Notes under the pieces: model-generated
Seen by the model: only the letters and a program-made list of their open reading frames with translations
What the model was told of the DNA's origin: nothing
Databases searched by the model: none
Shown here: in pieces, positions 5,137-41,994 of the stretch
How positions within the stretch are numbered: the first letter of the stretch is position 1
How the letters are laid out: every line of letters begins with the position of its first letter
Assembly: GCA_017889545.1 (NCBI GenBank)
Contig: JAGFZV010000022.1
Span: 1-44,444, forward strand
Length of the DNA: 44,444 nt
Reading direction: 5' to 3'
Origin: Bacillota bacterium
GTDB lineage: Bacteria > Bacillota > Negativicutes > CTSoil-072
Made by a program: the position numbers and the translations under genes

Positions 5137-5427
5137 ATGGCTAAGCACAAATTCCTTATGCATGACAAAGAGGACAGCGTCGGTGTAGCGGTTGCCGATA
5201 TCGTGAAAGGTGAAAAGGTCTACGGAGCTTTCCTTCATGGTGATGAACTGGTGGAAGTGGTAGCAAACGACAATATTCCGCTGGGACACAAAATTGCTTT
5301 GAAAAATGTTAAAAACGGCGAGTATGTCATGAAGTACGATGAAAAAATCGGGCTGGCAAAACAAGACATTAAAGTGGGCGACTGGGTACACACTCATAAC
5401 CTGAAAGGCTATCGCTGGGGTAAATAA
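5137..5427 (+). CDS. suyA: Putative (2R)-sulfolactate sulfo-lyase, small subunit
   Basis: A 96-residue stand-alone SAF domain, equal to the N-terminal part of altronate/galactarate dehydratases (UxaA family). It starts MAKHKFLMHDKEDSVGVAVAD. It carries the conserved IPLGHKIAL block and ends VHTHNLKGYRW, like the SuyA subunit of the bipartite sulfolactate lyase as I recall it. SuyAB converts sulfolactate to pyruvate and sulfite in the cytosol. The ATG follows AAGGAGGATCACACTA. The large subunit starts 37 bp downstream. The same small-plus-large split also occurs in some sugar-acid dehydratases, so the substrate rests mainly on the large subunit and on context. Confidence 0.75.
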   Translation: MAKHKFLMHDKEDSVGVAVADIVKGEKVYGAFLHGDELVEVVANDNIPLGHKIALKNVKNGEYVMKYDEKIGLAKQDIKVGDWVHTHNLKGYRWGK

Positions 5428-5464
5428 GAAAAAATATTGAAATCAAGTGAGGTGGGTTATTAAG

Positions 5465-6628
5465 ATGAATACCAAAATATTGGGATATAAACGTGAAAAC
5501 GGTAAAATTGGAATCCGTAATTACGTAGCTATTCTTCCTGTCGATGATTTATCCAATAATGCCTGCGAAGCAGTGGCTCATAACATTCAAGGAACAATCG
5601 CGCTTTCTCACCCGTACGGCCGTCTGCAATATGGTTCTGACTTGGACCTTCATTTCCGGACATTGATCGGTAACGGCGCCAACCCGAACGTGGCTGCTGT
5701 TGTTGTCATTTGCATCGAACAAAATTGGGCGAATAAAGTTGCTGAAGGCATTGCCAAAACTGGCAAACCGGTTGCAGCGTTTGGTATTGAAGGCAATGGT
5801 CTTCTGAAAACGATCGAAATGGCATCCCGCAAAGCGAAAGAATTCGTTCAATATGCGACTGCTATCGAAAAAGTAGAAGCAGATTTGTCAGATCTTACGA
5901 TCAGCTACAAATGCGGTGAGTCCGATACGACTTCCGGCTTAGCTGGCAATCCGACCATGGGTCGCGTTGCTGAGCGTATTATCGCCAAGGGCGGCACCAT
6001 CATTTTTGGTGAAACTTCCGAAACTACTGGCGCAGAACATATTTTAGCAAAACATTTCGCTACTCCGGAACTTGCTGAAAAATATCTGCAAATTCATAAA
6101 AACTATCTGCAAAAAATCGAAGACAGCGGCGAAGATTTGATGGGTTCGCAACCGACTGAGGGTAATATTACCGGTGGTTTGACGACAATTGAAGAAAAAG
6201 CATTTGGTAATATTCAAAAAGCTGGCCGCAAAGAATTCAACCCTGTTCAGAGCGTTCTTGATTTGGCAGAAGCTCCGGCTGGTCCTGGATTGCACTTCAT
6301 GGACAGCTCTTCCGCAGCTGCAGAATTCATTACGTTGATGGGCGCAGCTGGTGCAGTATTGCACTTATTCAACACTGGACAAGGCAACATTGTCGGCAAC
6401 CCGATTATTCCGGTTGTTAAAACGACTGCTAATCCGAACACGGTTATTCATATGGCTGAGCACATTGACGTAGATGTTGCCGGTCTTCTGACTCGTGAGC
6501 TGGATCTCGATACAGCCGCTGACAAAGTGATTGAATGCCTCGTAGCAACTGCCCGTGGTCGTTTCACTGCGGCGGAAGCTCTTGGACAGAAAGAATTCGT
6601 TCTTACTCGTCTGTATCCGAGCGCGTAA
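5465..6628 (+). CDS. suyB: Putative (2R)-sulfolactate sulfo-lyase, large subunit
   Basis: A 387-residue UxaA C-terminal-type protein. Features I associate with SuyB are ILPVDDLSNNACEAVAHN near the N-terminus, SHPYGRLQYGSDLDLHFRTL, GANPNVAAVVVI, CGESDTTSG at about 152, GETSETTGAEH and FMDSSSAAAE. The length also fits SuyB (about 388). With SuyA it would release sulfite from sulfolactate, leaving pyruvate. The start is the ATG at 5465 behind GAGGTG; an upstream in-frame GTG lies inside that ribosome site. It is followed by a strong terminator, so suyAB form a closed two-gene unit. The alternative is a split galactarate/altronate dehydratase, which I think less likely given the YeiH exporter and reductase neighbours. 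Confidence 0.76.
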   Translation: MNTKILGYKRENGKIGIRNYVAILPVDDLSNNACEAVAHNIQGTIALSHPYGRLQYGSDLDLHFRTLIGNGANPNVAAVVVICIEQNWANKVAEGIAKTGKPVAAFGIEGNGLLKTIEMASRKAKEFVQYATAIEKVEADLSDLTISYKCGESDTTSGLAGNPTMGRVAERIIAKGGTIIFGETSETTGAEHILAKHFATPELAEKYLQIHKNYLQKIEDSGEDLMGSQPTEGNITGGLTTIEEKAFGNIQKAGRKEFNPVQSVLDLAEAPAGPGLHFMDSSSAAAEFITLMGAAGAVLHLFNTGQGNIVGNPIIPVVKTTANPNTVIHMAEHIDVDVAGLLTRELDLDTAADKVIECLVATARGRFTAAEALGQKEFVLTRLYPSA

Positions 6629-8735: not shown

Positions 8736-8945
8736 ATAAAATAAAATAAAGACAAAAACTACACGCCAGAATTGATCTTGAGAAAGAGAAAGGGATCGGA
8801 TTGGTAACAAAGGAGGGCCGGATTAAAAGATTTATTGGCACTTGCGTGCACTAGATATAGGGATAATAATGCAAAAGAGATTCCGGCGATATTTTGTTAA
8901 TCGATTAAGAGTTTCAAAAAATATATATACGAAGGAGTGTTTGAA

Positions 8946-9803
8946 ATGAAATTTGGTTATATTGGACTTGGCTTAATGGGCGGACCGCTGGCACGGAATT
9001 TAATCCGCGCAGGCAAAGATGTAATGGTTTTTGATTTGAACGAAGAAGCGATTGCAAGAACGCTGGCGGCAGGAACCACGGGCAAAGCGGTGAAAAGTGT
9101 TGATGAAATGGTGGATTGTGATGTTGTGTTCACTAGCCTGCCGCTTCCGAAACATATCGAAGGAACCATGTTGGGTGAAAATGGGCTGTTGAGCAAAATG
9201 AAAAAAGGTGCTGTGTACATTGATGTCAGCACGATTGACCCGGAAACCGGTAAAAAAGTTTTTGATTTTGCCGCCAGCAAAGGGATTGATTTTCTGGCTT
9301 GCCCATTAGGCAAAGGACCTGCACAGGCGGAAAAGGCCGAACAGCCTATTTTTGCCGGCGGGACTCCGGAAGCGTTTGATAAAATGTTTCCCGTCCTCCA
9401 AATCGTTGGGAACCCGGTACAATATACGGGCGGCGTAGAACAAGCCTATGCCTTTAAACTTCTAAGCAACATGATCGGGATGACTAATCTGGCTGTATTA
9501 GCCGAAGGGATCAGGATCGGAGAACAAGCGGGAATTGAGACCAAGAAATTATTGGAGCTTTTGGCGGAAACGGGTGCCAATTCGTTCCAGCTGCAAGTTC
9601 GCGGGCCCTGGATCGCCAATCATGATTTTGCTAATCGGTTTGGCGTGGCACTGGCTCTGAAAGATGTCCGTCTTGGGTGTGAAATGGCGGATGCAATGAA
9701 CTATGACGCCAAATTCACAAAAATGGCGAAGGATGCTTACCAAGAGGCGGACAAGGCAGGCTTTAGCATGGAAGATTGCAACGCAGTTTACAAAGTACTG
9801 TAA
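8946..9803 (+). CDS. Beta-hydroxyacid dehydrogenase family; putative 3-sulfolactaldehyde reductase (copy 1)
   Basis: A 285-residue NAD(P)-dependent oxidoreductase of the GarR/3-hydroxyisobutyrate dehydrogenase family. The Rossmann motif GLGLMGG is at 7-13. Catalytic Lys171 and Asn175 sit in FKLLSNM. Common family members have a DAPVSGG loop, but here residues 119-127 read CPLGKGPAQ. This resembles the VGRTSAN loop of the sulfolactaldehyde reductase YihU, with Lys123 where YihU has Arg123, which I recall as a sulfonate contact. It may interconvert sulfolactaldehyde and DHPS. The start is the ATG behind AGGAG; a GTG 9 bp earlier overlaps that site. The paralogue at 14943 differs at 11 residues. 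A structured leader and an aldehyde dehydrogenase gene follow. A tartronate- or hydroxyisobutyrate-type substrate cannot be excluded. Confidence 0.72.
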   Translation: MKFGYIGLGLMGGPLARNLIRAGKDVMVFDLNEEAIARTLAAGTTGKAVKSVDEMVDCDVVFTSLPLPKHIEGTMLGENGLLSKMKKGAVYIDVSTIDPETGKKVFDFAASKGIDFLACPLGKGPAQAEKAEQPIFAGGTPEAFDKMFPVLQIVGNPVQYTGGVEQAYAFKLLSNMIGMTNLAVLAEGIRIGEQAGIETKKLLELLAETGANSFQLQVRGPWIANHDFANRFGVALALKDVRLGCEMADAMNYDAKFTKMAKDAYQEADKAGFSMEDCNAVYKVL

Positions 9804-9866
9804 TTTTCTATTATTAGTGTAATTCTGGATTTTAATATACATTTTTCATTCTTCGATTTTAGTCAT

Positions 9867-9951
9867 CTGCGGAAGAGTCCATGATGCTGAAACTATGGGT
9901 ATGCGGGGAAACCGGCATGCCTCCCACTGTGGAAAGAAGAACAATCAGTAG
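9867..9951 (+). promoter_or_regulatory. Moco/Tuco-type riboswitch aptamer, copy 1
   Basis: Hairpin GGTATGC/GCATGCC, then TCCC, three bases, GTGG and AAAG. The GTGG can pair with CTAT (9893-9896) before the hairpin. The same order (CCAG, GGCGAAG hairpin, GCCTCCC, CTGG, AAAGG) occurs in the E. coli moaA Moco leader as I remember it. The outer helix is poorer than in copy 2: CTGC/GTAG pairs but the inner part is mismatched. A terminator follows, then the aldehyde dehydrogenase gene. The aptamer is compact, which in this class has been linked to tungsten cofactor. Confidence 0.62.
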
Positions 9952-9959
9952 GCGAAAAG

Positions 9960-10000
9960 CCCTGCATTGTTTGCTTTGCATACAGTGCAGGGTATTTGTC
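9960..10000 (+). terminator. Riboswitch-linked terminator, copy 1
   Basis: Eleven-bp stem (CCCTGCATTGT with ACAGTGCAGGG, one wobble) followed by TATTTGTC. It lies 9 nt after the aptamer and about 64 nt before the aldehyde dehydrogenase start. The T-tract is weak, which suits conditional termination. Confidence 0.6.
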
Positions 10001-10063
10001 ATATAGAGGCAGTTTTTTCAATGAATAATCAACTTGCAAAAATGAGAGGAGAGTATATTGCGT

Positions 10064-11503
10064 ATGGAAAAAAGTATCAAAAAATCATTGTTTATTGACG
10101 GTGAATGGGTCGAGTCAATATCCAAACAAACCAAAGGAGTGGAAAACCCTGCAACGGGACAAGTGTTTTGTGAAATCAGTTATGGTGGTCCTGATGATGC
10201 CATTGCAGCCGTAAATGCTGCTGATCGCGCATTTGCTTCATGGTCGTCAACATCGGTTCGCGAACGATCAAATATTTTGAATCGCGTCGCGGTTCTTTTG
10301 CGAGAAAGAACCGATGAAATTGCAAAAATTCTGGCGACAGAATCAGGTAAACCCGTAGCCCAAGCAATGGGTGAAATTAAGTTTTCGGCGGAATATTTTC
10401 AATGGTTTGCGGAAGAAATCAGAAGACCGTCCGGACAAACGATCCCCGGTGACGTGCCGAATAAACGGCATCATTTTTACAGTCAACCGGCGGGTGTTGC
10501 GCTTTGTTTAACGCCGTGGAACTTTCCGGTATCCATTCAAGCGCGCAAAGTCGCTCCGGCATTGGCTGCCGGTTGTACAGTGGTAGCCAGAGGATCTGAT
10601 GCCGCGCCGCTGAGTGTAATTGAACTCTTCAAATGTTTACAGGATGCGGGTATTCCGAAGGGGGTAGCCAATCTCGTTCAAGGCCCTGCTTCCAGCACGA
10701 CAGAAGCGATGATGAAACAGCCGGCAGTCAGGGTAGTAAGTTTTACCGGATCGACGCCTGTTGGAAAAGCGATTATGCGCCAAGCTGCTGACCAGATGCA
10801 GCATTTGGCCTTGGAACTGGGTGGGAATGCGCCCTTCATTGTATTTGAAGATGCAGACATTGAGAAAGCCGTTGAAGGAGCGATGATTGCAAAATTCCGA
10901 AATAACGGTCAATCCTGCATCGGTGCAAACCGCTTCTATGTGCATGAAAAAGTGTATGATCAATTTGCGAAGCTATTCGCTGAGAAAATTTCGGCAATGG
11001 TAATTGGCGATCCGGTCAAAGACGCAAATGTGGATCTTGGACCGATGATTAACCAAAAAGGAAAAAACAAAATCGAGCAGTTGATTGGCGAAGCAGTAAG
11101 TCTTGGCGCGACTTATTTAGCGCCAAAAAGAGAGGTTCCTGCTGCTGGATACTATGTTTCACCGGTCATACTGGAAAATGTCCCAGAAACATGCGCCTTT
11201 GCGGCGGAAGAGTTATTTGCGCCGGCATCGCCGCTGTTCAAGTTCAGTGAGGAGGCTGAAGTGATCCGCAAAGCGAATAATACGGATATGGGCTTGTCTT
11301 CTTATGTGTATACGAAAGATATGGCGCGTGCCACGCGTGTTACTGAGGCGTTGAAATACGGAATTGTTGGACTTAATACTGGATTGCCGGTAGTAGCATT
11401 TACGCCAATGGGTGGGGTGAAGCAAAGTGGTTTAGGCCGTGAAGGCGGCAGATATGGTATTGAGGAATTTATGGAAGTCAAACATGTTGCAATGGATTTC
11501 TAA
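10064..11503 (+). CDS. NAD(P)-dependent aldehyde dehydrogenase, succinate-semialdehyde/sulfolactaldehyde dehydrogenase type
   Basis: A 479-residue ALDH closest in pattern to GabD-like enzymes. The catalytic Cys285 is in GQSCIGANR and the general-base Glu251 in LALELGGN. The cofactor region SFTGSTPVGKAI and the C-terminal PMGGVKQSGLGREGG are also present. The known sulfolactaldehyde dehydrogenase SlaB belongs to this GabD-like group. With the upstream putative sulfolactaldehyde reductase, oxidation of sulfolactaldehyde to sulfolactate (the SuyAB substrate) is a fair guess. Succinate semialdehyde is the obvious alternative. The ATG is chosen with AGAGGAGAG upstream; a TTG six bases earlier is possible. 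It would be read from the sigma-54 promoter through the riboswitch terminator. Confidence 0.78.
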   Translation: MEKSIKKSLFIDGEWVESISKQTKGVENPATGQVFCEISYGGPDDAIAAVNAADRAFASWSSTSVRERSNILNRVAVLLRERTDEIAKILATESGKPVAQAMGEIKFSAEYFQWFAEEIRRPSGQTIPGDVPNKRHHFYSQPAGVALCLTPWNFPVSIQARKVAPALAAGCTVVARGSDAAPLSVIELFKCLQDAGIPKGVANLVQGPASSTTEAMMKQPAVRVVSFTGSTPVGKAIMRQAADQMQHLALELGGNAPFIVFEDADIEKAVEGAMIAKFRNNGQSCIGANRFYVHEKVYDQFAKLFAEKISAMVIGDPVKDANVDLGPMINQKGKNKIEQLIGEAVSLGATYLAPKREVPAAGYYVSPVILENVPETCAFAAEELFAPASPLFKFSEEAEVIRKANNTDMGLSSYVYTKDMARATRVTEALKYGIVGLNTGLPVVAFTPMGGVKQSGLGREGGRYGIEEFMEVKHVAMDF

Positions 11504-11809: not shown

Positions 11810-11932
11810 TATAGTTAGGTGACGCAATGTTCCATCAATAGGCGGATGAAGAATGGACTGGTTAGCTCACTGAAAAGTACTGTCTATTACGGCATGGGCG
11901 TTAAAACAGAGAAAACGAGGGGGTACTATTCA

Positions 11933-12988
11933 ATGGTAAAAAAGTCCACAGTATTGATGCTGATGCTGGTTTTTGCCCTGACAGCGATTCTTACGGGGTG
12001 CGGCGGAGACAAAAAAGCTGACGCTCCAAAGGATGCGACGAAAAAAATTGTGATCAAGTATACGCATGGTGTTGGCACAGATCCTTCAGATCCTCATCAA
12101 TGGACTGCTCTTAAGTTTAAAGAACTTGCGGAAAAGTATACCAATGGAAAAGTAGACGTGCAAATATTTCCCGGCGGACAGCTTGGCAGCGAGCAGCGCG
12201 GCTTCCAGGATGTGCAGGGCGGCGTTGTCCAAATGACTTCGCTGGCTGTTAACAACGCCACTTCCTTTGCTCCTTCTCTCGGGTTTTTCGATTTGCCGTA
12301 TATCTTCAAAAGCCGTGATGAAGCCTACAAAGTTATTGACGGAATTTGGGATCCTTTGAATGAAAAAATGATCAAGGAGTCCGGTACCCGGTCCTTGATT
12401 TGGTTTGAACAAGGCTTTCGTGTGATCACGAACTCCAAAAAACCGGTTGAAAAACTGGAAGATTTGCAAGGCTTAAAGATTCGTGTTCCGAAAAATCCTT
12501 TGATGATTGGAACTTTTAAGGCGTGGGATTGCGAGCCTGTGCCGGTTTCCTGGGATGAGACCTTCAATGCCCTGCAGCAAAAAGTGGTAGACGGACAAGA
12601 GAATCCGCATACTGTTAATGCTTCGATGAAATTCCATGAAGTTCAAAAATACATTACGGATATTCATTACAAAATGTGGATCGGACCTGTCGTCGTTCAG
12701 GAAAAATGGCTGCAAAGCTTGCCGCCGGATGTTCGCGACGGACTAATTAAAGCTGGTAAAGACACTGCTAAAGCAGAGCGGGAATTCATTCAAAAGTTGG
12801 AGAAAGACGCTTTGGATAAATTGACAAAAGGCGGAATGATCTACTTAGGGACTCCGAAAGATGAAGATGAATGGATGAAACGTGCGATGTCGATTTGGCC
12901 GGATTATTACAAAACAATTGGCGGAACGGAAATGTTAAGCCAAGTCATGAAAATTCTGGGACGGGAAATGCCGCAGCCGAAAAACTAA
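11933..12988 (+). CDS. TRAP transporter solute-binding protein (DctP family)
   Basis: A 351-residue secreted lipoprotein. The signal peptide ends in the lipobox LTGC. The mature protein begins with a charged linker and then IVIKYTHGVGTDPSDPHQW, typical of DctP folds. The TRAP carboxylate-binding arginine region is present around IRVPKNPLMIGTF. It delivers an anionic substrate to the DctQM permease encoded next. The context suggests a C3 sulfonate or hydroxyacid; TRAP importers for DHPS (HpsKLM) are known. The start is the ATG with GAGGGGGTAC upstream. A longer in-frame version would place extra residues before the signal peptide and is rejected. Confidence 0.9.
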   Translation: MVKKSTVLMLMLVFALTAILTGCGGDKKADAPKDATKKIVIKYTHGVGTDPSDPHQWTALKFKELAEKYTNGKVDVQIFPGGQLGSEQRGFQDVQGGVVQMTSLAVNNATSFAPSLGFFDLPYIFKSRDEAYKVIDGIWDPLNEKMIKESGTRSLIWFEQGFRVITNSKKPVEKLEDLQGLKIRVPKNPLMIGTFKAWDCEPVPVSWDETFNALQQKVVDGQENPHTVNASMKFHEVQKYITDIHYKMWIGPVVVQEKWLQSLPPDVRDGLIKAGKDTAKAEREFIQKLEKDALDKLTKGGMIYLGTPKDEDEWMKRAMSIWPDYYKTIGGTEMLSQVMKILGREMPQPKN

Positions 12989-13006
12989 TTCGGTTACTGA
13001 GTCATG

Positions 13007-13046
13007 AGCAGCCCGGAGAGGGATTATCGCCGGGCTGCTTATCTTT
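13007..13046 (+). terminator. Attenuator hairpin between binding protein and permease genes
   Basis: Ten-base perfect arms (AGCAGCCCGG and complement) with a 13-base loop followed by TATCTTTT. Placed between dctP and dctQ it would make binding protein mRNA more abundant than permease mRNA. Confidence 0.7.
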
Positions 13047-13078
13047 TAGAGAGACACTATGGAAGAAGGAGTTTTAAG

Positions 13079-13588
13079 ATGAAGAAATTGATCCGTTATA
13101 TCGATCATTTTGAGGAAGTAGTGAGCTCCTCCTTGCTGATCACGGTCGTTCTGCTTATGTTTTCCCAGGTCATTCTCCGTTACGTATTCGGTAAATCTCT
13201 GGCGTGGTCGGAAGAATTAGCGCAAATGGCATTTTTGTGCATGGTTTATGTCGCGACAGCCCTTGCGGCGAAACAGGGCGCCCATATCCGCGTCACGGCC
13301 CATCTGAAATATCTGCCCAAATTGGCTCGCAACTTATTGATTTTGGCCGGCAATATACTATGGATCCTGTTTGACATGGTTGTTGTGTGGCAAGGAATTG
13401 TATTGGTTCAATCTATGATTGAGCACCCAATGAAATCGGCGGCGCTGGAATGGGATATGGCGCCCTTGTTTGCGGTCATTCCGCTGGCCTTTGCATTGCA
13501 GATTATTCGCATTATTCAACAGACAGTGATCGCTTGGCGTTCCGGTCAGGAGCTTGCCGTAGATGAGGGGGATAGTTATGGTGCATGA
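13079..13588 (+). CDS. TRAP transporter small permease (DctQ family)
   Basis: A 169-residue membrane protein with four predicted helices. The conserved segment ALAWSEELAQMAFLCMVYVATALAAK... is a DctQ hallmark (trp-ser-glu-glu motif after helix 2). It partners the large permease. The ATG lies behind AAGGAG. Its end overlaps the dctM start by 11 bp, indicating translational coupling. Confidence 0.9.
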   Translation: MKKLIRYIDHFEEVVSSSLLITVVLLMFSQVILRYVFGKSLAWSEELAQMAFLCMVYVATALAAKQGAHIRVTAHLKYLPKLARNLLILAGNILWILFDMVVVWQGIVLVQSMIEHPMKSAALEWDMAPLFAVIPLAFALQIIRIIQQTVIAWRSGQELAVDEGDSYGA

Positions 13589-14867
13589 TGGTCTCGTGTG
13601 GTTAATGCTCTTTGGCCTTTTGGCCTGTGGAGTGCCGATTTTCGTATCGTTAGGCGTTGCCACAACTGCTGTTCTTTTTCTTACCGATATTCCACTGGTC
13701 ATGATCCCCTTGGACTTATATAAGGTATCAGAGATGTTCCCGCTGGTTGCGGTGGCGGCGTTTGTGCTGGCTGGCTGCATCATGGAACGGGGCGGTCTAG
13801 CCCAGGAAATCGTCAATGTGGCTTCGATTTTCTTCGGGCATGTAAGAGGTGGACTAGGAATTGTCACCATTATTGGCTGTATGTTTTTTGCCGCGATGAT
13901 TGGTTCGGGGCCAGGTACAGTGGCCGCCATGGGAGCTCTGATGATCCCGGCGATGGTGCGAGCCGGCTACAAGAAAGAGTATGCCACCGGAGTATGTTGT
14001 ACCGGGGGGACGTTGGGAATTTTGATTCCGCCCAGCAACCCCATGATCGTATATGGCGTTATTGGCAACGTATCCGTTTCGGCTTTGTTTACCGCAGGTT
14101 TTGTTCCCGGATTTTTAGTTGGGTTAGCGTTAATGGCGACAGCGGTCTACTTTGCCCGCAAGGCGAATTTCCCGGTGTTGCAGCAGACGTACACCACAAA
14201 AGAAGCGCTGATGGTGGTGTGGCATGCCAAGTGGTCCTTGCTGGCGCCGGTGGTCATCCTTGGCGGAATCTATACCGGTGCGTTTACGCCGGTGGAGGCA
14301 TCAATCGTTGCTGTCGTATATTCGTTTCTGATTGGCTGGTTTGTTCACAAAAAACTGGATTGGAACGGATTGAAGGAAAGCTTGGCAATGACGAACGGGG
14401 TCACTGGGACAGTTCTGGCCGTTGTTGGGGTTTCGATCCTATTTGGGCGCTTCGTTACGATGTACCAAGTACCGCAGCGCTTGGCTGAAGCTGTTTTGAG
14501 CGTTAGTACAGATCCGATCATCGTCTTATCGGCGATTACTATTTTCTTATTTTTCTTAGGCATGTTTTTAGAAACTTTGTCAACCATCGTTATTTTGACA
14601 CCGGTAGTATTGCCGTTGTTGAAAAAAATTGGCGTTGACCCGGTGCATTTTGGAATTTTGCTGGTTATGACCAACGAGGTTGCGTTATTGTCGCCCCCGT
14701 TAGGCGTCAATCTGTTTGTGGCCTCAAAGATTTCAGGGTTGAGCTTGGAAAAAGTTTCAAAAGCTGCTTTTCCGTATATGTGCGTGATTATTGTTTTATG
14801 TTTCCTGGTTATTTTGTTTCCGGAAATTCCTCTCTTCTTGCCGAAGGCGCTTGGCATCTATAAATAG
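13578..14867 (+). CDS. TRAP transporter large permease (DctM family)
   Basis: A 429-residue hydrophobic protein with about 12 membrane segments. Family signatures include GSGPGTVAAMGALMIPAM and LGILIPPSNPMIVYG in the first half and the matching ETLSTIVILTPVVLPL and LLSPPLGVNLFVAS in the second. It is the sodium-driven translocation subunit. The ATG at 13578 has GAGGGGGA seven bases upstream. It is followed after 75 bp by the second dehydrogenase copy on the same strand. Confidence 0.92.
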   Translation: MVHDGLVWLMLFGLLACGVPIFVSLGVATTAVLFLTDIPLVMIPLDLYKVSEMFPLVAVAAFVLAGCIMERGGLAQEIVNVASIFFGHVRGGLGIVTIIGCMFFAAMIGSGPGTVAAMGALMIPAMVRAGYKKEYATGVCCTGGTLGILIPPSNPMIVYGVIGNVSVSALFTAGFVPGFLVGLALMATAVYFARKANFPVLQQTYTTKEALMVVWHAKWSLLAPVVILGGIYTGAFTPVEASIVAVVYSFLIGWFVHKKLDWNGLKESLAMTNGVTGTVLAVVGVSILFGRFVTMYQVPQRLAEAVLSVSTDPIIVLSAITIFLFFLGMFLETLSTIVILTPVVLPLLKKIGVDPVHFGILLVMTNEVALLSPPLGVNLFVASKISGLSLEKVSKAAFPYMCVIIVLCFLVILFPEIPLFLPKALGIYK

Positions 14868-14942
14868 TGAAATCATTATTGATGCCTTGCCGGATCGATT
14901 GAGAGATCTATAATAGGAAAATATGCATTAGGAGTGTTGAAA

Positions 14943-15800
14943 ATGAAATTTGGTTATATTGGTCTTGGCTTAATGGGCGGTCCATTGGCGAGAAATTTGA
15001 TCCGTGCCGGTAAAGACGTCATGGTTTTTGATTTGAGTGAAGAAGCGATTGCAAGGACGTTGGCCGTAGGAACTACTGGCAAAGCCGTGAAAAGCGTCGA
15101 TGAGATGGCGGATTGCGATGTGGTATTCACCAGCCTTCCGCTTCCCAAGCATATCGAAGGAACGATGTTGGGCGAAAATGGCCTGTTGAGCAAAATGAAA
15201 AAAGGGGCCGTCTACATTGATGTCAGCACCATCGACCCGGTAACCGGCAAGAAGATTTTTGATTTTGCCGCCAGTAAAGGGATTGATTTTCTGGCTTGCC
15301 CGCTGGGCAAAGGACCTGCACAGGCGGAAAAGGCCGAACAGCCTATTTTTGCCGGCGGAACAAAAGAAGCGTTTGATAAAATGCTTCCGGTGCTGCAAAT
15401 TGTCGGAAATCCGGTGCATTATACAGGCGGCGTCGAGCAAGCCTATGCTTTCAAGCTCCTGAGCAATATGATCGGGATGACCAATTTGGCTGTATTGGCC
15501 GAAGGGATTCGGATCGGTGAAAAAGCGGGAATTGAGACGAAGAAATTACTGGAATTGTTGGCAGAAACGGGCGCTAATTCGTTCCAGCTGCAAGTGCGCG
15601 GTCCATGGATCGCCAATCATGATTTTGCCAATCGGTTTGGCGTGGCGTTAGCGCTGAAAGATGTTCGGCTTGGTTGTGAAATGGCGGATGCAATGGGTTA
15701 TGATGCCAAATTCACAAAAATGGCGAAGGATGCCTATCAAGAGGCGGACAAAGCCGGTTTTGGCATGGAAGACTGCAATGCCGTTTATAAAGTGCTTTAA
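14943..15800 (+). CDS. Beta-hydroxyacid dehydrogenase family; putative 3-sulfolactaldehyde reductase (copy 2)
   Basis: A 285-residue paralogue of the protein encoded at 8946. Only 11 residues differ, while many third codon positions differ. All key features are kept: GLGLMGG, CPLGKGPAQ with Lys123, Lys171 and Asn175. A 50-bp stretch covering the CPLGKGPAQAEKAEQ region is identical at the DNA level, suggesting local gene conversion. This copy belongs to the TRAP operon, and the other copy is promoter-proximal in its own unit. The start is the ATG behind AGGAG. A structured leader and an unrelated-subfamily aldehyde dehydrogenase follow, repeating the arrangement of copy 1. Confidence 0.72.
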   Translation: MKFGYIGLGLMGGPLARNLIRAGKDVMVFDLSEEAIARTLAVGTTGKAVKSVDEMADCDVVFTSLPLPKHIEGTMLGENGLLSKMKKGAVYIDVSTIDPVTGKKIFDFAASKGIDFLACPLGKGPAQAEKAEQPIFAGGTKEAFDKMLPVLQIVGNPVHYTGGVEQAYAFKLLSNMIGMTNLAVLAEGIRIGEKAGIETKKLLELLAETGANSFQLQVRGPWIANHDFANRFGVALALKDVRLGCEMADAMGYDAKFTKMAKDAYQEADKAGFGMEDCNAVYKVL

Positions 15801-15834
15801 ATTTCACATATTTTAATTCTTCGATTTCAGTAAT

Positions 15835-15919
15835 CTACGGTGATTGCCATGATGCTGAAACTATAGGTATACCAGGAAACCAGTATGCCTCCCGTTGTGG
15901 AAAGAAGAGCAATCAGTAG
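15835..15919 (+). promoter_or_regulatory. Moco/Tuco-type riboswitch aptamer, copy 2
   Basis: The outer helix is well formed: CTAC/GTAG then TGATTGC/GCAATCA. Inside are CTGAAACTAT, the hairpin GGTATAC/GTATGCC, TCCC, three bases, GTGG and AAAGAAG. Compared with copy 1, a G-C pair in the hairpin is A-T here, a compensatory change that supports RNA structure. The order of elements matches the Moco leader of E. coli moaA from memory. The 16-bp terminator starts 4 nt later. Confidence 0.68.
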
Positions 15920-15922
15920 GCT

Positions 15923-15967
15923 AAAGGCCCTGCATTGTTTGCTGTACACAATGCAGGGCCTTTGTCT
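15923..15967 (+). terminator. Riboswitch-linked terminator, copy 2
   Basis: Sixteen-base perfect arms (AAAGGCCCTGCATTGT and complement), 9-base loop, then TTTGTCTT counting from the arm end. It separates the second dehydrogenase gene from the second aldehyde dehydrogenase gene. Confidence 0.75.
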
Positions 15968-15972
15968 TACAC

Positions 15973-16033
15973 AAGTGCAGGCGCCGGCTTTTGCCGTCGC
16001 GATTGAAGCTCGGATCAAGCCGGGTTTTCCAAT
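15973..16033. repeat. Interspersed 61-bp repeat, copy 2
   Basis: Gap-free partner of 6734-6794. It lies between the riboswitch terminator and the aldehyde dehydrogenase ribosome site, so it is part of that gene's leader. It ends in CTCGG-loop-CCGGG-TTTT, which could act as a second weak terminator. Confidence 0.7.
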
Positions 16034-16078
16034 AGTGAAAAATCTGTTCCAGTCGCATAAATCGTGAGGGGGACAAAT

Positions 16079-17500
16079 ATGACACAGGAGTACCGTCTGT
16101 TTATTAATGGGGAATGGATTGCAACGGAACGCAAACAAGGGGTGTTCAACAAAGCGACAGGCGATTTGATTGGCGAGTGCTATGTTGCCGGCCAAAAAGA
16201 AATTACGATGGCGGTGGATGCGGCGCAAAACACATTTCGAGTGCAAAAACTCGATCCTTATCGACGATTTGAGATCTTGAAACGCGCCAGTGAGCTTTTA
16301 TTGGAACGGCAGGAAGATTTTGCGCTGACAATCAGCCAGGAAGTAGGCAAAACGTTAAAGGAAGCCAGAGGAGAAGTGATCCATGCTGTGCAAACGTTGT
16401 TAGTTTCTGCTGAGGAAGCGAAAACGTTCCAGGGCGAATTGGTTCCTGTGAATGGTTCACGAGGCAATGCAAACCGATTTGCCTATACGCTGAGAATTCC
16501 GGTTGGTGTCGTTTGCGCCATCACGCCGTTTAATGTGCCGTTAAATCTTTCCTGCCATAAAATTGGCCCTGCGCTGGCGGCGGGAAATACTGTTGTCTAC
16601 AAACCGGCCAGCGTCACGCCAATCACCGGTGCAAAACTATGCCAAGTTTTCATTGATGCCGGACTGCCAAACGGGTTTCTAAACTTGTTGATGGGTGCTG
16701 GGTCTGTGGTTGGGAGCGCGCTGGTCAAGGACGAGCGGATTGCATTCTATAGCTTTACGGGCAGTGTAGACGTTGGCAAAGAACTAAAAAATGCGATTGG
16801 CTTTCGGCGGCTTTCCTTGGAGCTAGGGTCCAATGCGCCGAATATCATTCATCATGATGCGGATCTTGCTTTTGCTGTGGAGGCTTGTATCCGAGCGGCC
16901 TTTGCCAATGCAGGACAACTGTGCATGTCCTCGCAGCGAATCTATGTTCATGAATCAATTTATCAGCAATTTTGCAGCCAGGCAGTAGCGGCAACGCAAT
17001 CGTTGAAGGTTGGTGATCCATTGGATCCGAGTACGGACATTGGGCCGATGATCAGTGTGTCGGCCGCAATTCGGGCCGAAAATTGGATACGGGAAGCGGA
17101 GACGGAAGGAGCCACAGTGTTGATTGGCGGGTGGAGAAAAGGACCGTTTCTGCAGCCGACTATTTTGACTGATGTGACTGCGGATATGAAAGTAGTCAGT
17201 ATGGAAGCTTTTGCACCGATCTTTACCGTTGCCCCTTACAAAACGATTGAAGAAGCAATTGCACTGGCCAACAATTCGTTTTATGGTCTTCAAGCCGGCG
17301 TATTTACGAATTCCATGGATATTGCGAACCGCTGCATTGCCGGACTGGAAGTCGGGGGCGTCCTCATTAATGACGCATCGACTTTCCGGGCTGACTGCAT
17401 GCCTTATGGCGGCGTGAAGGACAGTGGTTTTGGCAAAGAAGGTCCGCGCTATACAATGAAAGAAATGACAGAAGAAAAAATTGTAGTGATGAAAATATGA
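16079..17500 (+). CDS. NAD(P)-dependent aldehyde dehydrogenase, lactaldehyde/phosphonoacetaldehyde/sulfoacetaldehyde type
   Basis: A 473-residue ALDH. The catalytic Cys282 is in NAGQLCMSSQR and Glu248 in LSLELGSNAP. The C-terminal motif MPYGGVKDSGFGKEGPRYTMKEMTE is typical of lactaldehyde, phosphonoacetaldehyde (PhnY) and sulfoacetaldehyde dehydrogenases. It therefore belongs to a different ALDH branch from the gene at 10064, although both follow near-identical dehydrogenases and riboswitch-like leaders. A sulfonated or hydroxylated C2-C3 aldehyde is the likely substrate. The ATG follows GAGGGGGA. It is the last gene of the TRAP operon, with a terminator 10 bp after the stop. Confidence 0.78.
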   Translation: MTQEYRLFINGEWIATERKQGVFNKATGDLIGECYVAGQKEITMAVDAAQNTFRVQKLDPYRRFEILKRASELLLERQEDFALTISQEVGKTLKEARGEVIHAVQTLLVSAEEAKTFQGELVPVNGSRGNANRFAYTLRIPVGVVCAITPFNVPLNLSCHKIGPALAAGNTVVYKPASVTPITGAKLCQVFIDAGLPNGFLNLLMGAGSVVGSALVKDERIAFYSFTGSVDVGKELKNAIGFRRLSLELGSNAPNIIHHDADLAFAVEACIRAAFANAGQLCMSSQRIYVHESIYQQFCSQAVAATQSLKVGDPLDPSTDIGPMISVSAAIRAENWIREAETEGATVLIGGWRKGPFLQPTILTDVTADMKVVSMEAFAPIFTVAPYKTIEEAIALANNSFYGLQAGVFTNSMDIANRCIAGLEVGGVLINDASTFRADCMPYGGVKDSGFGKEGPRYTMKEMTEEKIVVMKI

Positions 17501-17643: not shown

Positions 17644-18636
17644 ATGATGAAACGGATTGCTATTTTAAAAGGGGTCGCGTTGGCGGCTGTGATTGGTCTT
17701 GTTGCCCGCCAATTAGCGCAATTACCTGGACTTTCCATATTGGGGGCGATGGTGATTGCGATTATCGCCGGGATGGTATTCCGTGGCTTCCTGCAAGCTC
17801 GGGTGATAACAGTGCAGCCGGGAGTCAGTTTCACTGCAAAATATTTGCTGCAAATTGGCGTTGCGTTAATGGGGCTGCGCCTGAATTTGCAGGATATTGT
17901 AGCCGCCGGATGGCAAACTGTTTTTCTCGATTTGGCAGTGATTATTTTTACGATTGGCCTTATTCATTTACTGGGAGAACGGTATTTTGTGCGAAAAAGA
18001 TTAACCACGCTCATTGCCGTAGGAACCGGAGTTTGCGGTGCAGCTGCGATTGGCGCAGTGGCTCCGATGATCAGAGCCAAGGATGAAGACGTGGCGATCG
18101 CCGTGGCGATCATCGCTTTACTGGGGACCGCCTTTTCAATTTCGTACATTGTTCTTTTGCCTATTTTAGGTCTATCGCCGTATGCTTTTGGTACTTTTGT
18201 CGGTTCCACTTTGCATGAAGTTGCACATGTGGTGGCGGCATCAGATCCGGGCGGTGCGGTTAGCAGTGATACTGCGATTTTGGTTAAATTGGGACGTGTG
18301 GCCATGGTCATTCCGGTTGCGATCTTTTTCGGCTGGTCTTACAAGCGCCGCAGCGGCCAAAACGGAAAATTGGATCCGTTTACGGTTCCCTGGTTCTTGT
18401 TTGGGTTTCTAGCCTGTGCGGTATTCAATACGTATCATCTTTTGCCGCAATCGCTCATGATGTCGTTACAAGTAATCAGTGCCTTTTTGCTGACGATGGC
18501 AATGGCGGCTATGGGGCTGAATGTAAATTGGCAGTCGTTTAAAAAGGTCGGCCGCAATCCCGTACTCATCTGTTTCATCGGGTCGATCCTGCTCAGTTTT
18601 TTTGGCCGGGCGATTATCTGGATGTTTGAAATTTGA
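17644..18636 (+). CDS. YeiH/UPF0324-family putative sulfite/sulfate exporter
   Basis: A 330-residue inner-membrane protein with about nine to ten helices. Family blocks seen are GLRLNLQDIVAAGW, GTGVCGAAAIGAVAPMI, and FVGSTLHEVAHVVAA with the conserved His-Glu-His pattern. Members of this family are annotated as putative sulfate exporters, and related proteins occur with sulfonate-desulfonating enzymes as candidate sulfite exporters. Following an operon that would generate sulfite through SuyAB, export of sulfite is the simplest role. The start ATG follows AAGAGGTGATGG. It is convergent with a LysR gene, with only 7 bp between the two stop codons. Confidence 0.82.
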   Translation: MMKRIAILKGVALAAVIGLVARQLAQLPGLSILGAMVIAIIAGMVFRGFLQARVITVQPGVSFTAKYLLQIGVALMGLRLNLQDIVAAGWQTVFLDLAVIIFTIGLIHLLGERYFVRKRLTTLIAVGTGVCGAAAIGAVAPMIRAKDEDVAIAVAIIALLGTAFSISYIVLLPILGLSPYAFGTFVGSTLHEVAHVVAASDPGGAVSSDTAILVKLGRVAMVIPVAIFFGWSYKRRSGQNGKLDPFTVPWFLFGFLACAVFNTYHLLPQSLMMSLQVISAFLLTMAMAAMGLNVNWQSFKKVGRNPVLICFIGSILLSFFGRAIIWMFEI

Positions 18637-19694: not shown

Positions 19695-21035
19695 CTAGAA
19701 TTCGCTGACAGGAATATCCATCCATTTGCAGAGCGCCTTTATTTGCGGGCGAATATCGCCGTATGCAACGACAAAGTGGGCTTCCCAGCCTTGTTCAACG
19801 GAGGCGGTGATCAAGGCTTTGGCGCTGTTATCCGTTTTGATTTCAACTGATGTGCCTAGGAATTTTTGTGGTTCGTCGAGAGCTTCACCGCCTGCCAGGA
19901 ACATGCGGTAGCCATTCGGCCCTTTGCCTAGGCGAAGAATTGTAACCCGGCCTTCTTTTAAGCCGAATTCCATAGTTATGCCGAGTTTGCGGTTCGGATG
20001 CGTTCCGGCGGCGGCACCGGTATCTTTGCGTGCCAAGGAACAGGCTCCAGCACCGCAATGCCAATAAATAACAGAATTCTTTTCTTCATCCAAAGAGACA
20101 GGGTCGCCAAAATAAGGCGCTGAACCAGCAAAGTTTTTGGCTATGAACATGCTGATTGCTCCGCCGATATCGGCTTCACAGGAACTGACTACGCCGTTTT
20201 CTGTGAGAAAAGAAATGGCAGTGCAGACTGCGGCCTGGCATTCCATAAAGAAATCAGGCCAACAACGGGTAGCGAGGGCCCCAATGCCGTTTTCTTCCAC
20301 GATTTGCTTATAGGCAGTTCGGATGCGGCTATATTGTTCCAGTGTTTTATCATCGAAGCAGTCCGTTTTGGTCATGTTCTGCTGCAGTTCGAGCAAAGCC
20401 GGTTTGATTTCATCGGCAGTGAGCAGTCCTGCTTTTTTTATCACTTCGCGTGCTTCCAAGCGCAGCAGCTTAGGGCCAATGTGTCTCATCAGATCAACAT
20501 CTTCCAGGTTGGAGAAATAAAAACCCGGCGGGAAATGGCCGACAACGCCGATTTTTAAATCATGCAGCTGCTTTTTTACCCGTAGTGCATCTAGTTCGGC
20601 AGCAAGTGCGGGTCGCAAACTTTCTTCATCGGGGCTGCCGAAAACAAATGAAAACTTGCGGCCGAGCGACATGAGTACATTACCGGCAGCGTAGACCCCG
20701 GTTAAAGAATTTAAACGAAGCTTGCCGCCGTCAATGACCGGTTCGCGCACACCCCAAAGAATGATCGGGCAAGAAAGTTCCTGGACAATGCTTGCCAAAA
20801 AGGTTGAATCGACAAACGTGGTTGTTTGCACAATGGCTGCATCGGGCAAGGAAGTTTTGATGGAATTGAGATATGCGCCCAAGATTTCTGGCGATGTAAG
20901 CGGCTCGGTCGGGGCAGTTACTTGAACATTTAAACCATTAAGCACTTCCAATGATTTATTGTAATAGGCGTTGGCATACGTCATATCGAACGTAGTCCGG
21001 CAAAGTGGTAAAAATACAGTCTTAAAATTTTCCAT
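19695..21035 (-). CDS. L-fucose/L-arabinose isomerase-like protein; candidate (sulfo)sugar isomerase
   Basis: A 446-residue cytosolic protein with the AraA/FucI-superfamily layout. The N-terminal part has alternating strands and helices, with ILWGVREP near residue 93. The C-terminal half carries TRCWPDFFMECQAAVCTA and VSSCEADIGGAISM, the Mn-site region of the superfamily, followed by YWHCGAGACSLA. It would interconvert an aldose and a ketose. It is the last gene of the operon with transaldolase, aldolase and PFK. FucI-like sulfoquinovose isomerases partner a transaldolase in transaldolase-type sulfoglycolysis, which makes that substrate a candidate. An ordinary pentose or hexose is equally possible from sequence alone. 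The ATG lies behind GGAG. Confidence 0.72.
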   Translation of the reverse strand: MENFKTVFLPLCRTTFDMTYANAYYNKSLEVLNGLNVQVTAPTEPLTSPEILGAYLNSIKTSLPDAAIVQTTTFVDSTFLASIVQELSCPIILWGVREPVIDGGKLRLNSLTGVYAAGNVLMSLGRKFSFVFGSPDEESLRPALAAELDALRVKKQLHDLKIGVVGHFPPGFYFSNLEDVDLMRHIGPKLLRLEAREVIKKAGLLTADEIKPALLELQQNMTKTDCFDDKTLEQYSRIRTAYKQIVEENGIGALATRCWPDFFMECQAAVCTAISFLTENGVVSSCEADIGGAISMFIAKNFAGSAPYFGDPVSLDEEKNSVIYWHCGAGACSLARKDTGAAAGTHPNRKLGITMEFGLKEGRVTILRLGKGPNGYRMFLAGGEALDEPQKFLGTSVEIKTDNSAKALITASVEQGWEAHFVVAYGDIRPQIKALCKWMDIPVSEF

Positions 21036-21070
21036 GGTTCGCTCCTCACAATTTGTATTCAGTAAATACG

Positions 21071-22276
21071 TTATCGCAACATGATTTGCTTGTTTTGCAA
21101 ACGGGCATAACCCGGCAATGATCCGCCAAGCAGCGGCAGGCAGTAACGGTAATATTGTTCAGTAATGAAGTTTCCGGAGGCATTGATAAATTCATCAGGA
21201 ACAATCCGCTCCACATTTGCTACTTGATCCAGCGCAACGTGACCGCAGCTGCAAGCGTATTCTGGATCATCCGTGCGATCCAAAGTGACCATGATATCCG
21301 ACAAGCCTTCCTGCATGTAGCGGACTCCGGCTTGACCGGCCCGGAACGATTCTTCCAGGTCTGTCGGTGAAGCGCAGCAGGCCATAGCGCGTTGGATGGT
21401 GCCCGGTCGGTTGCAGCGGGTTTTTAGTCCCAGCTCTTGGTTAATTACTTTCGCCAAATAATTCCCCGGCCCTTCTGACATGGCAATCGCTTTATGGCCG
21501 AAGGCATCGGTTACTACGGACTCGGCGCCAATGAATTCGCCTTTCGCATCATGAATGCCTTCGCCGATAATTACGTAAACATAATTGAGGTTGCGGTGGA
21601 CCTCCTTGACGTCGGCCAGGAAACGGGGAATATCAAACGTTCTTTCCGGCAAATAGATCAAATGAGGCGCATCTTCAACCGTTTTCTTCGCCAATCCTGC
21701 TGCAGCGGCCAGCCAACCGGCATGCCGGCCCATCACCTCATAGATGGCGACATCGTCAAACGTACTCATGGCCTCCAAATCACGGCCGGAATCCAGTGTG
21801 CTAAGCGCGACAAAACGCGCAGCGCTGCCAAATCCAGGACAATGATCGGTAATTGGCAAATCGTTGTCGATTGTTTTGGGAATGCCGACTACGCGCATTT
21901 CGTAATTTTCCGCTTTGGCCAGCTTGGAAATGCGGTTGCAGGTATCCATACTGTCATTTCCGCCAATATAAACAAAATAGCGAATATCATTGGCTTTGAA
22001 AAAGTCTAAAATAATGTAATAGTCGGCTTCACTCAATTTGCGGCGGCAGCTGCCTAAAATCGACGCAGGCGTTCCGATCATCTTTCGGATTGTTTCGTCC
22101 GTTTCATTCGAAAGATTGTACACGGATTTTGTAAACACACCTTCAATGCCGTGGACAAGTCCGTAAATCGAGCCGATTTCGCTCATTGTTTTGGCCTGAC
22201 TGACTACTCCGGCAAGACTGGCATTAATTGCCGGCGTAGGTCCGCCGGACTGACCGACCAATAAATTGCCTTTCAT
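21071..22276 (-). CDS. 6-phosphofructokinase, PPi-dependent type
   Basis: A 401-residue PfkA-superfamily enzyme. It starts MKGNLLVGQSGGPTPAINAS. The donor-specificity residues read GGNDSMD, with Asp where ATP enzymes have Gly, and GIPKTIDND, with Lys in place of Gly. Both are marks of pyrophosphate-dependent enzymes, so the reaction with fructose-6-phosphate is probably reversible. It sits between aldolase and isomerase genes on one transcript. In a transaldolase pathway it would phosphorylate the fructose-6-phosphate formed. It might also accept sedoheptulose-7-phosphate. The ATG follows AAGGGGG. Confidence 0.88.
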   Translation of the reverse strand: MKGNLLVGQSGGPTPAINASLAGVVSQAKTMSEIGSIYGLVHGIEGVFTKSVYNLSNETDETIRKMIGTPASILGSCRRKLSEADYYIILDFFKANDIRYFVYIGGNDSMDTCNRISKLAKAENYEMRVVGIPKTIDNDLPITDHCPGFGSAARFVALSTLDSGRDLEAMSTFDDVAIYEVMGRHAGWLAAAAGLAKKTVEDAPHLIYLPERTFDIPRFLADVKEVHRNLNYVYVIIGEGIHDAKGEFIGAESVVTDAFGHKAIAMSEGPGNYLAKVINQELGLKTRCNRPGTIQRAMACCASPTDLEESFRAGQAGVRYMQEGLSDIMVTLDRTDDPEYACSCGHVALDQVANVERIVPDEFINASGNFITEQYYRYCLPLLGGSLPGYARLQNKQIMLR

Positions 22277-22326
22277 AGTAGAACCCCCTTATGAAATAAT
22301 TCTCTGCTGGAATAAAGGCTGTGTAA

Positions 22327-23172
22327 TTAGCACATTGTTTTCCAACCGGCTGCAAAAAACTCCAATTCACGTTTGACCATTGCGGCCACCGCATTTTTAC
22401 AAGCTTGCGGCACAGCAATCATATCCCAGGCCGAAACATTTTTCTCATGCGTGGTAATAAAGGTTTCCATATATACTTTTTTAACTTCCGTACCAATGTT
22501 AATTTTCTTAATTCCCAAGGAAATTCCTTTGGCAAATTGCTCTCGTGATAAGCCCGTGCCGCCGTGAAGGATGAGAGGAATTTCGCAATTTTTCGCAATT
22601 TCTTGCAAAAGATCGAAATTTAAATTCGGTTTGCCTTTGTATAGACCATGTGCATTGCCGATCGAGACCGCCAAGCCGTCAACCGAGGTAGCAGCCAGAA
22701 ACTGGGCAACATGCTGCGGATTGGTCATTTTGGCCGCCTTTACTTCTTCGCCATCTTCTAACCCAGCCAAAGCGCCTACTTCCGCTTCGACGGAAACGCC
22801 AAGAGAATGAGCCGCTTCGGTGACTTTATTGGTAATGGCAATGTTTTCTTCAATGCTTAAATGGGACCCGTCGATCATTACTGTGCTGAAGCCGAGGCGG
22901 ATCGCTTTCATACAAGTGGCATAATCTTTCGCATGATCCAGAAAAATACATACGGGTACAGAAGCGCGGCGCGCCAGATCAACCAAAATTTCACCGATAT
23001 AATCGTTGCCAGGTTGGTTGAGAACAGGTGCGCCGATCATTGCGATAACCGGCAAACCGGCCTCTTCGGCGCCCTGTATAACGCCCTGCACCGTGAATAG
23101 ATCGTACGTACTAAATGCTCCCACGGCGCCGTCGTGTTTTTTGAGGATCTCCTGCAGATTTACTAAAGCCAT
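22327..23172 (-). CDS. Class II fructose-bisphosphate/tagatose-bisphosphate aldolase family
   Basis: A 281-residue zinc aldolase. Metal-ligand histidines are visible in FLDHAKD, SIGNAHGLY and LILHGGTGL. The phosphate-binding end KKINIGTEVK is also present. It would split a ketose-1,6-bisphosphate to DHAP and an aldehyde phosphate. Linked to the PFK gene downstream, fructose-1,6-bisphosphate is likely. Sulfofructose-1-phosphate is conceivable, because a class II aldolase (SqiA) serves one sulfoglycolysis variant. The ATG follows AGGAGG. Confidence 0.88.
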   Translation of the reverse strand: MALVNLQEILKKHDGAVGAFSTYDLFTVQGVIQGAEEAGLPVIAMIGAPVLNQPGNDYIGEILVDLARRASVPVCIFLDHAKDYATCMKAIRLGFSTVMIDGSHLSIEENIAITNKVTEAAHSLGVSVEAEVGALAGLEDGEEVKAAKMTNPQHVAQFLAATSVDGLAVSIGNAHGLYKGKPNLNFDLLQEIAKNCEIPLILHGGTGLSREQFAKGISLGIKKINIGTEVKKVYMETFITTHEKNVSAWDMIAVPQACKNAVAAMVKRELEFFAAGWKTMC

Positions 23173-23233
23173 AGTATTCCCTCCTGTTAATTTTATAAGT
23201 TTGTATTATTACAACATTATGTTTTAAACCACT

Positions 23234-23256
23234 ACCCGGCCTTGCATGACCGGGTA
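23234..23256 (-). terminator. Weak hairpin between M24-like and aldolase genes
   Basis: A six- to seven-bp CCCGG/CCGGG stem just before the aldolase gene in the direction opposite to its transcription start region. No strong T-run follows, so it may be an mRNA processing or attenuation site. Confidence 0.35.
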
Positions 23257-23284
23257 TAACAAATCAATAATCGTATATTGCCGG

Positions 23285-24391: not shown

Positions 24392-24420
24392 AAAATCACT
24401 CCCAGTTAGATGATAGTAAC

Positions 24421-24463
24421 AGCCTGTTTGCGTTTGAAAAAGCACATCCAAACGCGACAGGCT
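24421..24463 (-). terminator. Attenuator-like hairpin between transaldolase and M24-like genes
   Basis: Fifteen-bp stem with one bulge (AGCCTGT...ACAGGCT) followed on the minus strand by TGTTACTATC. Weak as a terminator; it probably tunes downstream expression. Confidence 0.5.
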
Positions 24464-24481
24464 GCGGAAAAGCTGAGTTCT

Positions 24482-25132: not shown

Positions 25133-25268
25133 TATAGTTACCTCCCATAAATAATTTCTTACCTCATTTGGCTCAAAATCGTATTCTTTAAAGGGTGAAG
25201 ACAATTTTGAAAAAATAGAAGTACTGCTTGACAGATTCATACTATCAAAAATATAATTGAATTGCAAT

Positions 25269-25286
25269 ACAATATTGCAATATTGT
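25269..25286. promoter_or_regulatory. Perfect 18-bp palindrome, operator between divergent sugar operons
   Basis: ACAATATTGCAATATTGT sits 28 bp before the HutC-type regulator start and 137 bp before the transaldolase start. HutC/GntR regulators bind such symmetric sites. This one could repress both directions. Confidence 0.65.
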
Positions 25287-25313
25287 AATTTGGTTAGGTG
25301 GGTGAAAATATTC

Positions 25314-41756: not shown

Positions 41757-41894
41757 TAAGTTGGCATGGAATTGAAATAGTTTGTATTGATTATTAGAAA
41801 AGATCCCGCCGTTATCTGTTTTCAGCAAAAACATGCTGATTATCTTGACAATCTGCATCCTGAATGATTAACTACTATTAATAGATAGTATATT

Positions 41895-41975: not shown

Positions 41976-41994
41976 GCTTTAGAGCGTTCTTCAG

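Follow-up and report, generated by a model that had tools for sequence, protein, structure and literature searches.

Moco/Tuco riboswitches (RF01055) are known to control cofactor synthesis, molybdenum and tungsten uptake and cofactor-using enzymes (PMC2408646). Stem P3 is missing in 58 of 176 family members, which accompany tungsten-cofactor genes, and Regulski et al. (2008) speculated, for the sulfite oxidases of S. wolfei, that Tuco represses an alternative enzyme (PMC2408646). A related logic is found among the cobalamin riboswitches, some of which regulate isofunctional enzymes that can stand in for B12-dependent ones (PMC3766115). Two systems illustrate how a metal-free aldehyde dehydrogenase (ALDH) and a tungsten-type aldehyde oxidoreductase (AOR) can meet in one pathway. 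Desulfovibrio sp. DF1 converts DHPS via sulfolactaldehyde and sulfolactate to pyruvate and sulfite by means of DhpA, an ALDH annotated as SSADH (SlaB) and SuyAB; the genes of this pathway are accompanied by one for an AOR that is induced along with them, and the recombinant AOR, made in E. coli, was inactive on sulfolactaldehyde (PMC6278857). In Aromatoleum aromaticum a tungsten AOR and a phenylacetaldehyde dehydrogenase share one step, and AOR activity rises five-fold when the gene for this ALDH is deleted (PMC6365974).

Here we describe a locus that can be compared with all of these systems. It lies in a 44,444-nucleotide stretch of DNA from a Bacillota bacterium (the window), and in contrast to the published targets of the riboswitch family (PMC2408646) the genes behind its two Moco/Tuco elements encode metal-free ALDHs.

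Two Moco/Tuco aptamers, each followed by an aldehyde dehydrogenase gene

A preliminary description of this DNA had proposed a Moco/Tuco-type riboswitch and a terminator ahead of a GabD-like ALDH gene, and each of these elements was recovered. Scanning with cmscan gave an RF01055 match at 9839-9955 (+; aptamer A) that scores 56.5 bits (gathering score 36; E = 5e-11), and a second match that had been overlooked, at 15807-15924 (+; aptamer B), with 55.9 bits against the same cut-off. Both cover the model at full length (positions 1-135), and a chance match was rejected because two full-length scores lie well above the cut-off. The landmarks noticed earlier (GGTATGC/GCATGCC, TCCC, GTGG and AAAG) correspond to P4, P5 and the joining strand of aptamer A, and the motifs GGAAACC, GCCTCCC and TGGAAAG, present in both copies, represent the conserved P4 GAAA loop and the CCUCCC and GGAAAG strands. 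In aptamer A, P1 is formed by 9849-9854/9936-9941 and P4, with its GAAA loop, by 9898-9904/9915-9921, followed by the P5 region at 9922-9935; P1 of aptamer B is formed by 15817-15822/15904-15909. The model columns for P3 are empty in both copies of the RF01055 alignment. A and B thus resemble described members in sequence, in P1, P2, P4, P5 and the GAAA loop, and in lacking P3 as the tungsten-associated group does; terminators also occur near some known members (PMC2408646). Since P3-less members go with tungsten-cofactor genes, a correlation in the literature rather than a test (PMC2408646), we call both elements tungsten-cofactor (Tuco) type, with the tungsten cofactor as their probable ligand. 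The host genome encodes tupABC and five AOR genes.

The same order of parts occurs twice: a beta-hydroxyacid dehydrogenase gene, an aptamer, a hairpin and an ALDH gene. The first dehydrogenase gene (DhpA/SLA-reductase-like; 8937-9803, +) stops 35 nt before the match of aptamer A, and the second (14934-15800, +) stops 6 nt before that of aptamer B. Because the aptamers begin so shortly past these stop codons, they are most simply read as intercistronic attenuators, which would act on only the ALDH portion of the message. A promoter-like match ends at 9814, upstream of copy A, although such matches arise at near-chance frequency in the scan. ALDH1 (10058-11503, +) is a GabD/SlaB-like NAD(P) aldehyde dehydrogenase (PF00171, 519 bits; E. 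coli GabD is its top match in the PDB), whose usable start is probably ATG 10064, downstream of GAGAGGAGAG. ALDH2 (16064-17500, +; PF00171), a lactaldehyde/SafD/SlaB-like enzyme, likely starts at ATG 16076. The catalytic Cys/Glu motifs are GQSC/ELGG in ALDH1 and GQLC/ELGS in ALDH2.

The repetition reflects a duplicated block of 1.07 kb (8933-10003, +) comprising the dehydrogenase gene, aptamer and terminator, which is 83.6% identical in DNA sequence to 14930-15969. It stops short of the ALDH genes, whose products share just 38% identity. This boundary would fit a reading in which the element belongs to the upstream dehydrogenase gene, its 3' end having been copied along with it and control of the ALDH being incidental. 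We consider this very improbable. Both copies retain the aptamer and platform and show compensatory changes: among 27 differences in 153 columns, the stems listed show two double compensatory pairs, four one-sided changes that still pair and one lost P2 pair, and at its short A-rich end the antiterminator is missing two pairs through a deletion. Moreover, RF01055 riboswitches control the downstream gene, and in the genus of Desulfotomaculum ruminis, discussed below, the element heads an operon with no such dehydrogenase upstream.

Leader anatomy and the direction of control

Downstream of aptamer A lies a GC-rich terminator hairpin with a U-containing tail (9959-10000, +; hairpin 9959-9993), as had been claimed, and downstream of aptamer B lies its counterpart (15925-15969, +; hairpin 15925-15961) with the tail UUGUCUUA; both U-tails are imperfect (AUUUGUC in A, UUGUCUU in B). 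In the minimum free energy fold predicted for the ligand-free RNA before the terminator 3' arm is made, P2 and P4 are kept, while the 3' strands of P5 and P1 pair with the terminator 5' arm and loop. The resulting predicted antiterminator spans 9928-9982 (+; -19.9 kcal/mol) in A and 15897-15949 (+) in B. At this stage the antiterminator fold is at -46.6 versus -41.1 kcal/mol for the P1-forced fold in A, and at -34.4 versus -32.1 in B; once the 3' arm is included, the fold with P1 and terminator is the minimum in B and equals it in A. Mononucleotide shuffles reach the antiterminator duplex in 0.8% of cases for A and 1.6% for B, and an antiterminator built from the P4/P5-5' strands was no better than shuffles. 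Both copies thus combine a terminator with a predicted antiterminator that is mutually exclusive with aptamer P1, imperfect U-tails notwithstanding, and by these modelled folds the layout is standard for an OFF switch acting through transcription termination. Translational control of the ALDHs was judged unlikely, the Shine-Dalgarno sequence lying about 50 nt past the terminator. Between terminator B and ALDH2, and not after copy A, there is an extra GC-rich hairpin (15985-16040) ending in TTTTCC (AAGCCGGGTTTTCC) that could be a second terminator.

We envision a scenario in which, when cofactor is absent, the nascent RNA pairs the 3' strands of P5 and P1 with the terminator 5' arm, so that an antiterminator would form, polymerase would read through and ALDH would be made. 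Bound cofactor would lock P1 and P5 and let the terminator form, so that the message would lose its ALDH portion and nothing else. The opposite arrangement, in which cofactor raises ALDH expression, for example of an ALDH that works with a tungsten enzyme, must also be weighed: members of the same RNA family with ON-type anatomy do precede cofactor-using enzymes, and teamwork between ALDH and AOR is conceivable. However, both ALDH copies have a terminator apart from P1 and an antiterminator that competes with the aptamer, as in moa/moe leaders, and for the moa/moe gene class repression has been measured in E. coli (PMC2408646). An ON switch on the ALDHs therefore appears improbable.

The other Moco/Tuco elements of this genome bear on the same question. 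There are six RF01055 matches, which precede a moeA/moaA operon, a formate dehydrogenase gene, a tup-type tungstate transporter operon (the tupABC genes thus carry an element of their own), an AOR gene (a weak match, 28.5 bits) and the two ALDH genes; the moeA/moaA element alone has P3. Cofactor synthesis, transport or use, a context typical of the family without defining it, is found behind the other four elements, whereas A and B precede ALDHs. The aor and moa genes that the preliminary description had suggested looking for are therefore both present, the former as five PF01314 matches, one with in-frame stops, and the latter in the moeA/moaA operon behind its own element.

In the AOR leader of this genome the P1-3' strand overlaps the terminator 5' arm, so that formation of the aptamer should block termination, a wiring opposite to that of the ALDH leaders. 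Across leaders, the P1-3' strand is the terminator 5' arm in 11 of 13 AOR leaders versus 2 of 36 assignable moa/moe, tup and ALDH leaders (copy A counted among the leaders whose terminator is separate from P1, and many moe leaders of one family, in which no P1 motif was found, left out); the Fisher value of 2e-7 is indicative only, because the leader sequences are related. Of the two deviating leaders in the group of 36, one seems to have a weak hairpin and the other an antiterminator assigned in error. The formate dehydrogenase leader (C50:77720-77850, -) reads as a translational ON switch, since a 9-nt complementarity links CCTCCCATT in its aptamer with AATGGGAGG in the Shine-Dalgarno region. 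The gene behind it contains a weak SECIS match. Together these leaders form a coherent set by anatomy, with cofactor users ON and both cofactor supply and metal-free ALDH OFF.

These observations support the earlier proposal that the ALDH is switched off when cofactor is plentiful: the RF01055 matches, the competition between a ligand-free antiterminator and P1/P5 in both copies, the ON-type anatomy of tungsten enzymes in the same genome and an independent Tuco-ALDH pairing that is conserved in another genus all point this way. Our best explanation, to which we assign a probability of about 0.7, is that A and B are Tuco OFF switches on the ALDHs while the leaders of the tungsten enzymes are ON switches, and that the tungsten enzyme takes over the oxidation. 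Each P3-less riboswitch would then sit in mid-operon between a dehydrogenase that makes an aldehyde and a metal-free ALDH that oxidizes it, and AOR and formate dehydrogenase leaders in the same cell would be wired the other way, cofactor bound meaning ON. When tungsten cofactor is short the metal-free ALDH would be made, and when it is abundant oxidation would be left to the tungsten enzyme. The regulatory logic, an OFF switch on the ALDHs, is well supported by leader anatomy; the direction of control in vivo we infer from the predicted folds. If true, the long-standing problem of what makes a cell use tungsten-dependent or metal-free aldehyde oxidation becomes testable by tungstate titration, and the ON and OFF anatomies of one aptamer class within one genome provide a clean internal contrast for solving what Tuco riboswitches sense.

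A literature search found no publication on a Moco/Tuco riboswitch controlling a metal-free ALDH, and we know of no earlier case in which such a riboswitch controls a cofactor-independent enzyme. The claim of a new regulatory logic holds only in part: a metal-free ALDH does fall outside the published gene list, but the cobalamin riboswitches set a precedent (PMC3766115) and repression by Tuco had been speculated upon (PMC2408646). As in the cobalamin case, a cofactor sensor would shut off a cofactor-independent isoenzyme; unlike that case, cofactor and RNA class are different, and for cobalamin the replaced enzyme is known (PMC3766115).

The RF01055 relatives linked to AOR genes (L010 at C38:63958-64069, L186, L189, L194, L198, L204-L206, L209, L211, L212, L217 and L218) score 28-45 bits and have a signature of their own, with TTCCGA, CCTGCC, GCAAAGGAAG, a longer P4 and a P1 that doubles as a terminator arm. 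They are possibly a distinct ON subclass of the Tuco riboswitch. We give roughly even odds to a broader proposal, in which a single cell uses one sensor class in both directions, so that Tuco turns ON the tungsten enzymes AOR and formate dehydrogenase and turns OFF the metal-free ALDH that substitutes for them, tungsten supply picks the chemistry for the aldehyde step of sulfonate catabolism, and the AOR-linked RNAs, with P5 changed to CCUGCC/GCAAAGG and the P1 strand as terminator arm, make up that ON subclass. Upstream of the AOR leader there is also a near-perfect 68-nt palindrome (L006:1728-1795), which Rfam flags as miRNA-like, surely wrongly, and which may be a terminator or a mobile-element remnant.

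Gene context and the aldehyde step

DhpA- and SuyAB-like genes accompany both ALDH genes in what is predicted to be a locus for sulfonate degradation. The beta-hydroxyacid dehydrogenase falls in the family that includes DhpA as well as 3-sulfolactaldehyde reductase (PDB 6sm7, 112 bits; closest solved relative 9k2j, 378 bits), and a candidate sulfolactate sulfo-lyase (5137-6628, +) consists of a SuyA-like SAF-domain protein (5137-5427) and a SuyB-like GD_AH protein (5447-6628). The genes for a TRAP transporter, DctP, DctQ and DctM (11819-14867, +), lie between the two modules, and a YeiH-type (Cons_hypoth698) putative sulfate/sulfite exporter follows at 17644-18636 (+). On the opposite strand (19695-25327, -) a candidate sulfosugar pathway comprises a protein resembling the sulfoquinovose isomerase SftI, a PPi-phosphofructokinase, a class II aldolase, an M24 peptidase-like protein and a transaldolase/FSA. 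The SftI-like protein matches NF048012 of NCBIfam over its full length (E = 2.6e-144) with 481 bits against a cut-off of 700, and is thus a relative, not an equivalog. The SuyB, SftI and sulfolactaldehyde dehydrogenase assignments are predictions from family membership and context. Elsewhere in the window, a c-di-GMP-I riboswitch (41894-41978, +; 73.2 bits) lies directly 5' of a gene (42083-44230) whose product, with CHASE4-like, GGDEF and HD-GYP type domains recognized by eye, suggests feedback on c-di-GMP turnover.

This gene content, together with the DHPS pathway of DF1 (DhpA, SlaB and SuyAB), leads us to favor 3-sulfolactaldehyde as the probable ALDH substrate. Proposed sulfonate-binding residues of SlaB are either two Arg with WNF or His and Asn with FNV (PMC10599462); ALDH1 has WNF and both Arg, a set that SSADHs share, and in ALDH2 FNV and His are present, but Ala takes the place of the Asn. 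The locus resembles the DF1 system in its beta-hydroxyacid dehydrogenase, SSADH-annotated ALDH and SuyAB, and in an AOR as second candidate, but no riboswitch was described in DF1, and the DF1 AOR gene adjoins the cluster, whereas here the AOR genes lie elsewhere in the genome (PMC6278857). If true, our model would indicate an influence of trace metals on the breakdown of sulfoquinovose and DHPS.

A Tuco riboswitch could also be real and serve redox or metal economy (the yield of ferredoxin versus NADH, or general tungsten status) instead of replacing one isoenzyme by another on the same aldehyde. No AOR gene was found within the ALDH/riboswitch locus, and the ALDH in relatives of D. ruminis is a glutamate-semialdehyde dehydrogenase, a step for which we know of no AOR. 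The inactivity of recombinant DF1 AOR on sulfolactaldehyde points the same way; this negative result is weak because the enzyme was made in E. coli, which to our knowledge is not known as a host that loads AORs well with tungsten. Against this reading, AORs accept a broad range of substrates. In addition, the AOR and ALDH genes of DF1 lie with those of its DHPS pathway and are induced together with them (PMC6278857), and the Aromatoleum pair acts on the same step (PMC6365974). The Aromatoleum system is like the one proposed here, although the passages considered describe no riboswitch control there. We regard the redox or metal economy reading as a serious but rather unlikely alternative, and favor a tungsten enzyme and an ALDH that presumably share one substrate.

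Recurrence in other Bacillota

We inspected the genes downstream of at least 159 matches in the class of the source organism (one counted twice) and at least 70 in other Bacillota, a filtered set and no census; the genus, family and order of the source organism are represented by this genome alone. Among the matches listed (about 230, Bacillota), an ALDH gene lies downstream only in this genome and in the genus of D. ruminis. D. ruminis itself (G577) carries two P3-less aptamers in tandem, followed by a small uncharacterized gene and by one for L-glutamate gamma-semialdehyde dehydrogenase (NF002852, 827 bits against a cut-off of 648). Three further genomes of the genus share the tandem arrangement (four in all), one with the locus split over two contigs; a fifth has an aptamer and terminator before a transposase-like gene close to a contig end, and a sixth has the ALDH in a different setting without the element. 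The leaders of the four genomes combine a terminator with an antiterminator that uses the P1-3' strand, the same OFF anatomy as in A and B, and AOR genes occur in all six genomes of the genus tested. Since the ALDH of this genus is of an independent subfamily, the Tuco-ALDH pairing arose at least twice. The expectation that the element would be conserved ahead of ALDH genes in relatives was accordingly borne out only in part: among the 29 closest relatives of ALDH2 in the class, none has it upstream, but an independent pairing exists in the four D. ruminis-genus genomes.

The survey also yielded other associations. Recurring pairs of unknown proteins of about 119-180 and 535-558 aa, with no Pfam match, follow Moco/Tuco RNAs at five loci (L183, L167, L174, L185 and L169). 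One family of the class, with large genomes, has at least 14 genes for sigma-54 activators with GAF/PAS domains downstream of P3-less Moco/Tuco RNAs (L059, L082, L083, L084, L095, L162, L163, L168, L182 and others), and by way of such a regulator Tuco may reach further genes. At one locus (L161; G298:C5:353436-354044) three consecutive RF01055 matches lie before a TonB-receptor-like gene, and similar receptors, candidates for outer-membrane tungstate uptake, follow the element in other genomes.
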